From an uncultured Pelagibacteraceae bacterium (lineage in GTDB: Bacteria; Pseudomonadota; Alphaproteobacteria; Pelagibacterales; Pelagibacteraceae), in NCBI GenBank assembly GCA_902515205.1, contig CABXTU010000004.1, positions 1-64,000 of the forward strand: 64,000 nt of DNA, read 5' to 3'. Made by a program: the position numbers and the translations under genes. The stretch's first letter is position 1. The number at the start of each line of letters is the position of its first letter. The notes beneath the pieces were generated by a model. The model saw only the letters and a list, made by a program, of their open reading frames with translations, was not told the DNA's origin and made no database searches. Below, one piece after another: positions 37,624 through 56,693 of the stretch.

Positions 37624-37957
37624 AAAACATAAAGATGTTTATAATATCAGTCATAAAAATAGCAAAACTAATTATGAAAGATTAGTAATTTTGATTAATA
37701 ATTTTTTAAATTCAAAAAAATTAAAGATACACAATATTTCAGCTATATATATAAATAGGGGACCCGGTAGTTATGCGGGAATAAGAAACTCACTTTCTGT
37801 AGTAAAAGCAGTACATTTAACAACGAAAATTGATTATTTTTGTTATAGTTTCAGTGATTTTACAAGCGAGAAAAATATTAAACATGAAAATATCCCTAAA
37901 TTATGTAATAAATTTAGCATAAAAAAAAATTTGATTAATCCTATTTACATGAGTTAA
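37571..37957 (+). CDS. tsaB: TsaB-like tRNA t6A modification protein (short form, 128 aa)
   Basis: KLIIDAASENIFLMII and INRGPGSYAGIRNSLSVVKAV motifs of TsaB; C-terminal half much reduced. Confidence 0.8.
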   Translation: MNKLIIDAASENIFLMIIKHKDVYNISHKNSKTNYERLVILINNFLNSKKLKIHNISAIYINRGPGSYAGIRNSLSVVKAVHLTTKIDYFCYSFSDFTSEKNIKHENIPKLCNKFSIKKNLINPIYMS

Positions 37958-37965
37958 AATTACTG

Positions 37966-38397
37966 ATGTCAGATGTTATTGAACAAAAATGTATTTCTAA
38001 AGGTGTTAAGCTTACCGATCAAAGGAAAATAATTGCTAAAGTTATATCAGAGTCGAAAATGGAATACGGCGACTCGGATCATCCTGATGTAGATGAGATA
38101 TATAACAGGGTTTCAAAAATTGATCCAAAAATAAGCATAGCAACAGTTTATAGAACAGTAAAACTCTTTGAAGAAGTTGGAATATTAACAAAGCACGATT
38201 TTAAAGGTGGTAAAGCAAGATATGAACCGATATTTGAAAGTCATCATGATCATTTAATTGATGTCAAAACTGGAGAAATCATCGAATTTGTTGATAATGA
38301 AATCGAAACACTACAAAAAAAAGTCGCAGAAAAATATGGCTATGATTTAATAGATCACAAACTAGAGTTGTATGGGGTTAAAAAAAAACCTCAATAA
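37966..38397 (+). CDS. fur: Ferric uptake regulator family protein Fur
   Basis: KLTDQRKIIAKVI, SIATVYRTVKLFEE, FESHHDHLIDVKTGEIIEF motifs. Confidence 0.93.
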   Translation: MSDVIEQKCISKGVKLTDQRKIIAKVISESKMEYGDSDHPDVDEIYNRVSKIDPKISIATVYRTVKLFEEVGILTKHDFKGGKARYEPIFESHHDHLIDVKTGEIIEFVDNEIETLQKKVAEKYGYDLIDHKLELYGVKKKPQ

Positions 38398-51533: not shown

Positions 51534-52745
51534 TTACACTTTCTCAAAAATTAAAGCTGCATTGGTTCCACCAAAACCAAAGCTATTTGACATAACAGTG
51601 TTTAAAGTTACTCCAGTTTCTGTTTTTGCAACTATTGGAAACTTTTTAGCTTCAGAGTCCATTTCACCAATGTTTGCAGAGCCTGCTATAAAATTATTTT
51701 TCATCATAATCAAACAATAGATCGCTTCATGCACTGATGCTGCCCCTAAAGGATGACCCGATAGAGATTTTGTTGAACTTATTTTTGGAATATTGTTACC
51801 AAAAGTTTCTTTAACTGCATTTAGTTCAGTAATATCTCCCACAGGTGTAGATGTTCCATGAGTATTAATATAATCAATTTTATTTTTAGTTGTAGCCATT
51901 GCTATTTTCATACATCTAACCGCTCCTTCTCCTGATGGTGCTACCATGTCGTATCCATCTGAGGTTGCTCCATAACCTGTTAATTCTGCATATATTTTAG
52001 CCCCTCTAGCTTTTGCATGTTCATATTCCTCAAGCACCAACACACCGCCACCACCAGCTATTACAAAACCGTCTCTAGTTTTATCGTAAGCTCTTGATGC
52101 TGTCTCTGGTGTATCGTTATATTTAGAGGACAATGCAGTCATAGCATCGAACATTGCAGTCATTGCCCAGTGGATCTCTTCACTACCACCAGCAAAAACA
52201 ATATTTTGTTTACCCATTTGAATTAGTTCCATAGAATTTCCTATACAATGGCCACTAGTTGCACAGGCAGAGCTCATTGTATAGTTAGTCCCCTTTATTT
52301 TAAATGGAACAGCAAGTGTAGCTGAGGCAGTACTTGCCATTGTTCTTGGGACTATGAATGGTCCCATTAATTTTGGAGTTTTGGCTCTAGTTTTATCAGC
52401 TGCTAAAATTACATTTTCAATCGAAGGTCCTCCTGATCCCATAACAATTCCAGTTTTAAAATTACTCACTTCACTTTCTTCTAGGCCTGAATCTTCGATA
52501 GCTTCTTTCATTGCAATATAATTATAAGCTGAACCAGATCCCATAAATCTAATAGTTTTTCTATCTATATGGTCTTCAAGTTTTATTTTTGGTTTCCCAT
52601 GGACATGGCTTTTTAGATTGTGTTCTTTATACTCCTCACTAAATGATATCCCAGATTTAGAATTTAATAGAGATTGATGAACTTCTTCTTGATTATTACC
52701 TAAACAAGATACAACCCCCAAACCTGTAATTACAACTCTTCTCAT
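51534..52745 (-). CDS. fabB: 3-oxoacyl-ACP synthase I
   Basis: [54 protein letters not shown] motifs; next to fabA. Confidence 0.96.
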
Positions 52746-53245
52746 TATTTGAACAAACCTACCTTTAAACTGTCTGCTGAATAAATCTTTTTATCGTCTG
52801 CTAATACCACTCCATTAGCGAGACCTACTGTTGTACCTCCTGGAGACATAATTTTTTTCATATCTATCTCATATCTGACGTTTTTTACGCTTTGTAAAAC
52901 TTCACCAGTAAATTTTACAGTCCCCACTCCTAAAGCTCTTCCTTTTCCTGGATTTCCAATCCAGCCTAAATAAAATCCTACTAATTGCCACATAGCATCA
53001 AGACCAAGGCAGCCAGGCATGACAGGGTCTTCTTTAAAGTGACAATTAAAAAACCAAAAGTTTTTTTTTATATCTAGTTCAGCTTTCAATGAACCTTTGT
53101 TAAAAGCACCCTTATCATCAGTAATTTCTGTAATTCTATCAAACATAAGCATAGGTGGAAGAGGTAATTTAGCATTTCCTGGACCAAATAGTTTACCTTC
53201 TCCGCAATCAATTAGCTCATCATACGAGTAAGAGTTTTTTTTCAT
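52745..53245 (-). CDS. fabA: 3-hydroxydecanoyl-ACP dehydratase
   Basis: [42 protein letters not shown] motifs. Confidence 0.97.
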
Positions 53246-53295
53246 AAGAGTACTCTTATTTACTTGATTTTGTAATTATATAATATAATTATAAT

Positions 53296-53317
53296 ACTAG
53301 TTTAGAATAATTATAAC
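53296..53317. promoter_or_regulatory. Irr-box/ICE-like element in fabA-irr intergenic region
   Basis: ACTAGTTTAGAATAATTATAAC; the TTTAGAAtaaTTaTAAc core resembles the alphaproteobacterial ICE palindrome TTTAGAAnnnTTCTAAA; partner copy upstream of katG. Confidence 0.6.
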
Positions 53318-53335
53318 TAACAATATGGTTAAATA

Positions 53336-53734
53336 GTGAAATATATTGAAAAACTTAGAAATTCTGGATTAAGACCAACTAAGCAGAGACTTCAAATTTG
53401 TGATGTTTTATTTAATACCGATAAAACATTTCATTTCACGATAAATGAATTAGAACAAAAAATTAAGAAACAAACAAACAGCAAAATATCACTAGCTACA
53501 GTTTATAATACTGTTCACGCATTTGAGAAAAAAGGATATCTGAAACAAATTCCCATCAATTCTAGTGAGACCTATTTTGATACAAATGTTACTGATCATC
53601 ACCATTTTTATGATTTGAAAGAGGAAAAATTGATTGATTTAGAGAATTCAGATGTAGGACCAATTAATATTTTAAAAAAAATTAATGGAAAAAAGATTAA
53701 GTCAGTTGAAGTTTTAGTAAAACTAGAGGAATAA
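53336..53734 (+). CDS. irr: Fur-family iron response regulator Irr
   Basis: SGLRPTKQRLQICDVLF, SLATVYNTVHAFEKKGYL, VTDHHHFYDL (HHH) ; divergent from fabA as commonly seen for alphaproteobacterial irr; GTG start. Confidence 0.88.
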   Translation: MKYIEKLRNSGLRPTKQRLQICDVLFNTDKTFHFTINELEQKIKKQTNSKISLATVYNTVHAFEKKGYLKQIPINSSETYFDTNVTDHHHFYDLKEEKLIDLENSDVGPINILKKINGKKIKSVEVLVKLEE

Positions 53735-53777
53735 TCTAACGATTAATTTAGCGTCATTTTTAACCAATTGACACTTT

Positions 53778-53799
53778 TTTAGAATCATTATAAACTAGT
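53778..53799. promoter_or_regulatory. Irr-box/ICE-like element upstream of katG
   Basis: TTTAGAATCATTATAAACTAGT; reverse complement ACTAGTTTATAATGATTCTAAA matches the irr-upstream element at 18/22 positions; overlaps the spacer/-10 region behind TTGACA (53768-53773). Confidence 0.65.
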
Positions 53800-53831: not shown

Positions 53832-56069
53832 ATGAGCACTGAGAACTATAAAAATAAATCTTTTAAAGCTGATCAATTAAGCAAATGTCCTTTTACTGGA
53901 GCAGGAACGCCTGCAAAATTTTCTGCTGGAAGAGGTCAATCAGTAAGAGATTTTTGGCCAAATAGTTTAAATCTCAAAATACTTAGTCAACATTCTAATC
54001 TATCAAATCCGATGGATAAAAAATTTAACTACGCTAAAGAATTTAAAAAACTTAATTATAAGGCTCTCAAGAGAGATTTAAAAAAACTAATGACTGATTC
54101 ACAAGAGTGGTGGCCAGCCGATTATGGCCATTATGGACCTCTATTCATAAGGTTAGCTTGGCACGCAGCGGGTACATACAGAACCGGCGATGGAAGAGGT
54201 GGAGCTGGAACTGGAAATCAAAGATTTGCACCACTTAATTCTTGGCCAGATAATGTCAATTTAGACAAAGCAAGATTGCTTCTTTGGCCAATTAAAAAAA
54301 AGTATGGAAATAAAATCTCTTGGGCAGATTTATTTATTCTAGTTGGAAATGTTGCTTTAGATTCTATGGGATTTAAAACATTTGGATTTGGTGCAGGAAG
54401 AACAGATATTTGGGAACCAGAAGATGATATTTACTGGGGATCAGAAAAAGAGATGTTAGGTGTGGAAAGATATACCCCAAAAAGAGATTTAGAACAACCA
54501 CTGGGTGCTTCACATATGGGTTTGATATATGTCAACCCACAAGGTCCTGATGCTAATCCAGATCCAAAACTTGCAGCGCATGATATTAGGGAAACATTCG
54601 GTAGAATGGCAATGAATGATTATGAAACAGCAGCATTAGTAGCTGGTGGACACACATTTGGAAAATCACATGGAGCAGCGCCTGAGTCACACAAAGGCCC
54701 TGACCCTGAAGCTTCAAGAATTCAAGATCAGTCAACTGGATGGAATAGTGGATATAAATCTGGAAAAGGTGTTGATACAATCAGTAGCGGTATCGAAGGT
54801 GCTTGGACACAAAATCCAATTCAATGGGATATGGGTTATTTAGACTGCCTTTATGATCACGAATGGGAGCTTACAAAAAGTCCTGCTGGTGCTCATCAAT
54901 GGACACCAAAGAAAAATGGGCAAAAGATAAAAATGGTTCCTGATGCACACGATAAAAATGTTCTTCACCCTCCTATGATGCAAACAACAGATATTTCTAT
55001 GAAAGTTGATCCAAGTTATGGGCCTATTACAAAACATTTTCATAAAAATCCAAAAGAATTTCACGATGCATTTGCTAGAGCATGGTTTAAACTAACCCAC
55101 AGGGATATGGGGCCAAGAGTTTGTTATCTTGGTAGTGATGTTCCAAAAGAACAACTAATTTGGCAAGATCCAATTGATAAACCAAAATATAAATTGATAT
55201 CAAAAGATATAAATGATTTAAAATTAAAAATATCAAAGTCCAAACTATCAGTTTCTGATTTAGTTTCTACTGCTTGGGCTTCAGCTTCAACTTTTAGAGG
55301 CTCTGATAAAAGAGGCGGTGCTAATGGAGCAAGAATAATGTTAGAGCCACAAAAAAATTGGAAAGTTAATAATCCTTCTAATCTCTCAAAAGTTATCTCA
55401 GCGTTAAAGAAAATTAAGAAACAATTTGATAATAAAAAGAAAACAGTTTCAATGGCTGATTTAATTGTTTTAGCTGGAGGAGTGGGAGTTGAAATGGCTG
55501 CTAAAAAAGCTGGATATAAAGTAAAAGTTCCATTTTCTCCTGGTAGAGGAGATGCAAGACAAGATCAAACAGATGTGAATTCATTTGGATTATTAGAACC
55601 TCAAGCAGATGGTTTTAGAAATTATCTAAATGGTGGTAAATCAATTGTATCAGCTGAAGAAAAGCTAATTGATAAAGCACAATTAATGGGATTAACAGCT
55701 CCTGAAATGACAGTGCTTTTAGGTGGAATGCGAGTCTTAGATACAAACTACGATAATTCTAAAGATGGTGTATTTACAAAAAAACCTGGTGTGCTAACTA
55801 ACGATTATTTTTTAAATCTATTAGATATGAATATAACATGGAAAGAAACAGATAAATCTGAACAAACATTTGCTGGAATAGATAGAAAGACGAAAAAAAC
55901 AAAATGGAAAGGTACAAGAGTTGATCTTATTTTTGGGTCAAATTCACAATTAAGAGCTTTAGCTGAAGTCTATGCGTGCGATGAATCTCAAGACAAATTT
56001 ATCAAAGACTTTACTGCAGCATGGGCTAAAGTGATGAATGCAGACAGATTTGATTTAAAATTTAACTGA
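53832..56069 (+). CDS. katG: Catalase-peroxidase
   Basis: [63 protein letters not shown] motifs; full two-domain length. Confidence 0.98.
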
Positions 56070-56090: not shown

Positions 56091-56693
56091 ATGGAAAAAA
56101 ATAATTTTAAAGATTTTTATGAAGTACCCAATCTAAATTTTGATATTTCAAAACTACAATCTGATTTAAACAAGATACTAGAAAATAAAAAATTTAATTC
56201 TCCTGGGGTTACTCATTTTGGAGCAATTCCGTTAAACCAAATTCCAAATGATGAGAACTCTATTAAAGGGAATAATATAAGAGGAAAATATTGGACGATA
56301 GCTGATGATACAGGCAAGGAAGTTTCAAGAGATGTAGATATAGATGAGTCTAAATACACACAATTAGTTCCAGAATTTGAAAAAACTTATTTTGAAGAAG
56401 TATTCGAAACATTGAGCAAAAGATTTAAACTAGGAAGAGTAAGACTCTTATTAAAAGAGCCAAGATCGACTTTAAGTTGGCATAAAGATCCAGAATGTAG
56501 ACTTCATGTTCCAATTATAACTAACAAAGGCTGCTCTATGGTTATAGAAAATGTTGCTAAGCATCTTCCTGCTGATGGAAAAGTATGGATAACAAACAAC
56601 ACTAAGTTTCACAATTTTTTTAACGGGGGTGAACAAGCTCGTATACATTTAGTTGCGTGTGTTCTTGAGAGCCCTTTTAAAAATGATGATTAG
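56091..56693 (+). CDS. Aspartyl/asparaginyl beta-hydroxylase-like (2OG-Fe(II)) protein
   Basis: RLLLKEPRSTLSWHKDPECRLHVPIITNKGCSMVIEN...NNTKFHNFFNGGEQARIHLVACV with HxD...H and R residues of AspH-like dioxygenases. Confidence 0.75.
   Translation: MEKNNFKDFYEVPNLNFDISKLQSDLNKILENKKFNSPGVTHFGAIPLNQIPNDENSIKGNNIRGKYWTIADDTGKEVSRDVDIDESKYTQLVPEFEKTYFEEVFETLSKRFKLGRVRLLLKEPRSTLSWHKDPECRLHVPIITNKGCSMVIENVAKHLPADGKVWITNNTKFHNFFNGGEQARIHLVACVLESPFKNDD

Follow-up and report, generated by a model that had tools for sequence, protein, structure and literature searches.

Regulators of katG-, ahp-, and rbr-type peroxide defense include OxyR (OxyR-katG) and PerR (PerR-katA/katG), and PerR belongs to the Fur superfamily. 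Irr of the Rhizobiales is also a Fur-superfamily regulator with a histidine cluster, and the HHH heme-binding cluster is a conserved feature of rhizobial Irr. The N-terminal Cys-Pro heme regulatory motif is of the Bradyrhizobium type and is not universal in Irr, so it does not define the family. Irr sites in Pelagibacter may reportedly have been predicted by Rodionov et al. in 2006. The Irr/ICE motif is a TTAGAA-n3-TTCTAA-type palindrome found at promoters, and a gel-shift-confirmed Irr box reads TTAGAAATATTCTAGA (PMC6956336). Rhizobiales regulons are large, with 23 predicted sites in Bradyrhizobium, and they include the gene for a rubrerythrin-like protein, Bradyrhizobium blr7895 (both as cited in PMC3413700). 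The Irr regulon of Rhodobacter sphaeroides is tiny; its predicted targets, mbfA (rubrerythrin-like) and ccpA (cytochrome c peroxidase), carry verified Irr boxes, whereas katE has no Irr box and is not bound by Irr (PMC3413700). In SAR11, it is already known that both Irr and Fur are encoded (PMC2864753), and surveys have found katG to be patchy and habitat linked, with no regulatory explanation given (PMC12636525).

The window analyzed here is the whole 64,000-nucleotide stretch of SAR11 (Pelagibacteraceae) DNA. On its minus strand lie fabI-fabB-fabA (fabA at positions 52745 to 53245), and divergent from them, on the plus strand, are irr (53336 to 53734), katG (53832 to 56069), aspH (56091 to 56693), and a gene for an ArsP_2-type transporter. 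katG encodes a catalase-peroxidase HPI of 745 amino acids (aa), and aspH encodes an Asp/Asn beta-hydroxylase-like protein of 200 aa. We refer to the position directly behind irr, which is filled by katG in the window genome, as the slot; elsewhere it holds katG, rubrerythrin (rbr), or, rarely, a peroxiredoxin.

The irr product is a Fur-superfamily regulator of 132 aa, and its nearest named relatives, from Pelagibacteraceae single-cell genomes, are at most 95% identical. It matches the Fur-family domain (PF01475 FUR, E = 3.5e-20) and carries the histidine cluster DHHHHFY; H88-H89-H90-F91 was unchanged in all 14 SAR11 Irr proteins compared, which represent several genera. The Cys-Pro heme regulatory motif was looked for in the window Irr and is absent, a difference from the Rhizobiales protein. 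The NCBIfam models IrrA (127 bits; cutoff, 150) and Irr (118 bits; cutoff, 170) were the top families by about 60 bits, although both scores are below the cutoffs. Scores against PerRA (56 bits; cutoff, 200) and PerRB (53 bits; cutoff, 250) do not place the protein in PerR, and the core of the site described below matches Irr/ICE. Solved structures related to the window Irr are those of Fur and PerR proteins only. A second Fur-family protein is encoded on the plus strand at about 37830 to 38285; it is 27% identical to Irr over 108 aa and has the Fur-like sequence HHDHLID.

Two Irr/ICE-type sites, both on the plus strand, lie on either side of irr. The irr-side site, TAGTTTAGAATAATTATAACTAA (53298 to 53320; core, 53301 to 53317), falls within the fabA/irr gap, and the slot-side site, TTTTTTAGAATCATTATAAACTA (53775 to 53797; core, 53778 to 53794), overlaps the katG promoter. 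The −35 element of this promoter is TTGACA (53768 to 53773), and the likely −10 element, judged from its sequence and its spacing in relatives, is TATAAA (53789 to 53794), within the right half of the site. The spacer between them is 15 bp in the window and 15 to 17 bp in relatives, and 78 of the 80 named relatives have TTGAC in their slot promoter.

A preliminary description of this DNA had reported 22-mers at 53296 to 53317 and 53778 to 53799 that are identical at 18 of 22 positions, with the katG copy just downstream of TTGACA. All of these elements are present as placed, and the overlap with the promoter was confirmed. However, the katG copy had been read in the opposite orientation. On the plus strand, with each site read toward its own gene, the 17-bp cores match at 15 of 17 positions, and both sites score about 11 bits higher on the plus strand than on the minus strand with our sequence model; thus, having both sites in the same orientation relative to their own genes is the better fit. 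The reverse alignment is explained by a common ACTAG, the outer part of a longer palindrome, TAG...CTA, whose left copy is kept at irr and whose right copy is kept at katG. The same description had assigned the sites to the Irr/ICE motif type. The palindrome and TTAGAA-n3 bear this out, but the right half-site reads TTATAA where ICE has TTCTAA. This one change is consistent, giving TTAGAA-n3-TTATAA in an 11-1-11 palindrome that overlaps the promoter, and the family-wide consensus, TAGTTTAGAATnATTATAAACTA, is an Irr/ICE-type palindrome of the same form.

Whether the window or the 994-kb draft genome was searched, these two sites were the only zero-mismatch matches to the 22-mers. Our sequence model has 23 positions and was trained on 30 sites, including those of the window locus. 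When the genome was scanned with it, as the preliminary description had proposed, the katG site (20.9 bits) and the irr site (20.6 bits) were the top two matches, and the next match scored 14.2 bits; this search scored 150 first-look candidates per genome and may miss weak additional targets. With a matrix trained on other genera alone, the katG site scored 26.2 and the irr site 18.2, and 300 simulated 64-kb windows gave maxima with a mean of 9.4 and a highest value of 20.0. Thus, the katG site is above all of the simulations and the irr site is above nearly all of them. Occurrence at background frequency had been named as a result that would count against the motif, but both sites are far above simulations and shuffles. 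A degenerate 22-mer pattern allowing three mismatches had 12 matches genome-wide versus 22 for a reversed-pattern control, which is background; a regulon therefore cannot be delimited by this pattern on its own. Our best reading is that the SAR11 Irr regulon, in contrast to those of the Rhizobiales and like that of R. sphaeroides, is very small, and that it is reduced essentially to one locus, making Irr a nearly single-target regulator.

Using as a threshold 13.3, the best score among 561 shuffled regions, we found the slot-side site in 112 of 112 irr-bearing genomes in which the gap was read. It was also present in all 80 named SAR11 single-cell loci (in L326 by eye), and it is kept across KatG proteins that are just 55 to 60% identical and across exchanges of katG, rbr, and peroxiredoxin. 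Many relatives have a second copy beyond TTGACA in the opposite orientation; the window genome has the downstream copy only. The irr-side site is present across the window's genus, except at L062 and L311, was found at none of 21 loci in genus g2, and is missing in parts of g3, g4, g6, and g8 (g1 to g14 are group codes for genera). Alignment of related genomes bore out the expectation that the motif is conserved before orthologous irr and katG genes. The accompanying proposal, that Irr autoregulates and directly controls katG, is supported with some refinement: the peroxidase-side site is invariant, but the irr-side site is dispensable, and binding by Irr itself is predicted from sequence. Autoregulation would be a lineage option, and control of the neighboring peroxidase would be the invariant part, an interpretation supported by this distribution. 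Since whole clades have lost the irr-side site, we did not retain autoregulation as the principal role.

Among 197 genomes of the family, several of them incomplete, katG was found in 134 and rbr in 31, and no genome had both. The 131 genomes with irr comprised 99 with katG and 31 with rbr (hypergeometric P = 7e-19 for exclusion, not corrected for relatedness) plus a single genome with neither, G096, whose irr match is only partial. Every rubrerythrin genome carries irr with rbr directly behind it, and in irr-bearing genomes whose loci were read, katG or rbr always directly follows irr. Slot content in the 80 named loci was katG in 55, rbr in 24, and a Redoxin-family peroxiredoxin in 1. The four genomes with a peroxiredoxin in the slot (G402, G266, G294, and G373) have irr upstream and a site on each side of the promoter; katG and rbr were sought in these genomes, which are 68 to 83% complete, and neither was detected. 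None of 26 unlinked relatives of the slot peroxiredoxin has the site. A FabA+FabB tree built from 85 loci implies at least 12 switches of slot content; this count comes from a quick tree in which many branches are weak, and it could be inflated by recombination at the locus. The data support the conclusion that katG is one of three interchangeable, unrelated peroxidases behind the same promoter type. Unlike katE of R. sphaeroides, SAR11 katG carries the site and adjoins irr in a swappable slot.

In most loci with katG in the slot, aspH comes next, even where katG is only about 55% identical (L058 and L059); aspH was seen in no rubrerythrin-slot locus. It is a katG-linked partner.

We read the katG upstream regions of 25 genomes that have katG but lack irr. 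The site was kept in only two of them (G006, 23.7; G177, 17.9), and the others were at background; thus, the site was present in 112 of 112 irr-bearing genomes versus 2 of 25 irr-less katG-bearing genomes, a comparison that includes few strictly independent losses. In seven genomes (G001, G049, G077, G062, G073, G177, and G006), irr has disappeared and fabA and katG now adjoin; in the irr-less genera g5, g9, and g12, katG is located elsewhere. G073 and G122 have a decayed site where G006 still keeps an intact one. Several irr-less genomes still have another Fur-family match (E, about 1e-9), which indicates that site loss follows irr. Parsimony on a FabA tree gave five changes of irr state but only two independent pairs on well-supported branches, too few for significance when irr loss and site loss are compared by independent pairs. 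The link between irr and the site is therefore strong as a pattern, but its formal independence is modest. In G130 (L136, genus g3; genome 5% contaminated), the DNA immediately before katG holds what is left of irr, interrupted by an in-frame TAA, apparently a case of regulator loss in progress.

The explanation that best accounts for the data as a whole is that both sites are probably operators of the SAR11 Irr encoded between them, and that Irr represses the slot peroxidase until it is released by heme/iron or by oxidation. The binding, the repression, and the heme/iron or peroxide signal are predictions drawn from the sequence comparisons. An Irr dimer would bind the consensus site, which in the slot promoter usually covers the −10 element, as at katG here, and which in many relatives has a second copy toward the −35 element. 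Bound Irr would keep RNA polymerase off the slot promoter; a change in heme/iron status, or oxidative loss of Irr, would release it, and the slot peroxide scavenger (KatG here, rubrerythrin or peroxiredoxin elsewhere) would then be made. In the window's genus, Irr may also occupy the site at its own promoter. The Irr regulon would have shrunk essentially to this locus, with the operator staying in place while the peroxidase was exchanged. In Bradyrhizobium, heme-bound Irr activates O2 and degrades itself (PMC4700492); by analogy, O2-driven self-degradation of Irr is a possible route to peroxidase induction. We lean slightly toward a broader view, that SAR11 Irr is a dedicated peroxidase switch and no longer a global iron regulator, with a fixed irr-operator-promoter unit whose slot has been repeatedly refilled, one at a time, with nonhomologous scavengers (heme KatG, diiron rubrerythrin, and thiol peroxiredoxin).

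The sign of regulation could differ from this. If Irr is bound at the sites yet acts as an activator, or represses like Fur in iron-replete cells, the peroxidase would be induced in iron limitation. Iron limitation of “Ca. P. ubique,” which has rubrerythrin, raised rbr mRNA 1.57-fold, with no clear iron response of irr (PMC2864753). The rise in rbr runs counter to simple repression by Irr in low iron, and the second site just upstream of the −35 element in many relatives could support activation. However, the usual position of the slot-side site, over the −10 or at the transcription start, is that of a repressor. The start of R. sphaeroides mbfA, likewise, lies within its own Irr box and was read as indicating repression, and the approximately 1.5-fold rise of mbfA in low iron occurs even without Irr (PMC3413700). 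We therefore consider activation or a Fur-like sense unlikely, and repression is favored over activation.

It is also conceivable that Irr is not the protein that uses the sites. Fur-family proteins bind AT-rich palindromes, and the window genome encodes a second Fur homologue (near 37.8 to 38.3 kb) that, like some other regulator, might do so. But the sites decay or are absent without irr though another Fur match remains, they cluster at the irr locus, and their core matches the gel-shift-confirmed Irr site (PMC6956336), all of which make another regulator improbable. Least credible is that the conserved sequences are mere promoter elements (an extended −10 with flanks) or chance occurrences in AT-rich DNA. 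An A+T content of about 70% for the genome and the presence of the −10 element in the katG site speak for this, but the scores of the two sites exceed those of simulations and shuffles by far and are the unique top two genome-wide. Moreover, the palindrome spans 23 bp, also occurs away from the −10 (in many relatives it lies 5′ of the −35), and is absent at the katG promoters of irr-less genera. Repression by Irr thus remains the preferred explanation.

SAR11 are the most abundant ocean bacteria and are dominant at the surface, and which of them remove H2O2, and when, bears on the H2O2 dependence of the community. Irr-bearing SAR11 have one such peroxidase at a time, beside irr and under an Irr-type operator, so that their peroxide defense appears tied to iron/heme status. 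This would extend Irr control directly to a catalase-peroxidase; the effect on catalase in R. sphaeroides was judged to be indirect (PMC3413700). Irr and ICE were already known. A literature search of partial coverage found no description of direct Irr control of katG, of a one-at-a-time slot, or of a near single-locus regulon. The system consists of one protein, one 23-bp site, and three enzymes, and the lineages that have lost irr are a natural experiment on operator decay.

Several further observations concern other promoters and elements. A wider regulon, suggested by weaker off-locus matches to the model in relatives, was rejected after 20 loci were read; most matches lay in coding DNA or at assorted transporter promoters, and no target recurred consistently. 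As the only exception, the promoter of a 1-Cys peroxiredoxin gene has gained an Irr-type site in three close genomes (L230, 1498 to 1539; L241 to L243). Orthologues in most other genomes, including that of the window, are without it, and the site in L257 is elsewhere in position. Just 5′ of the katG −35 TTGACA (region 53751 to 53773), GCGTCATTTT is conserved in the window's clade and recurs at the katG promoters of genus g5, which lacks irr (L063, L070, and L082). In the roughly 2.9 Mb of strand sequence examined, it occurs 23 times, always in katG upstream regions (some of these loci overlap). It is possibly a second, Irr-independent control element; it could also be due to chance, by a rough estimate of a few per cent. 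In the fabA/irr gap (53246 to 53335), a block, ACTTGATTT-n-TATAATATA, is kept in many relatives and may be a promoter element of fabA or irr.
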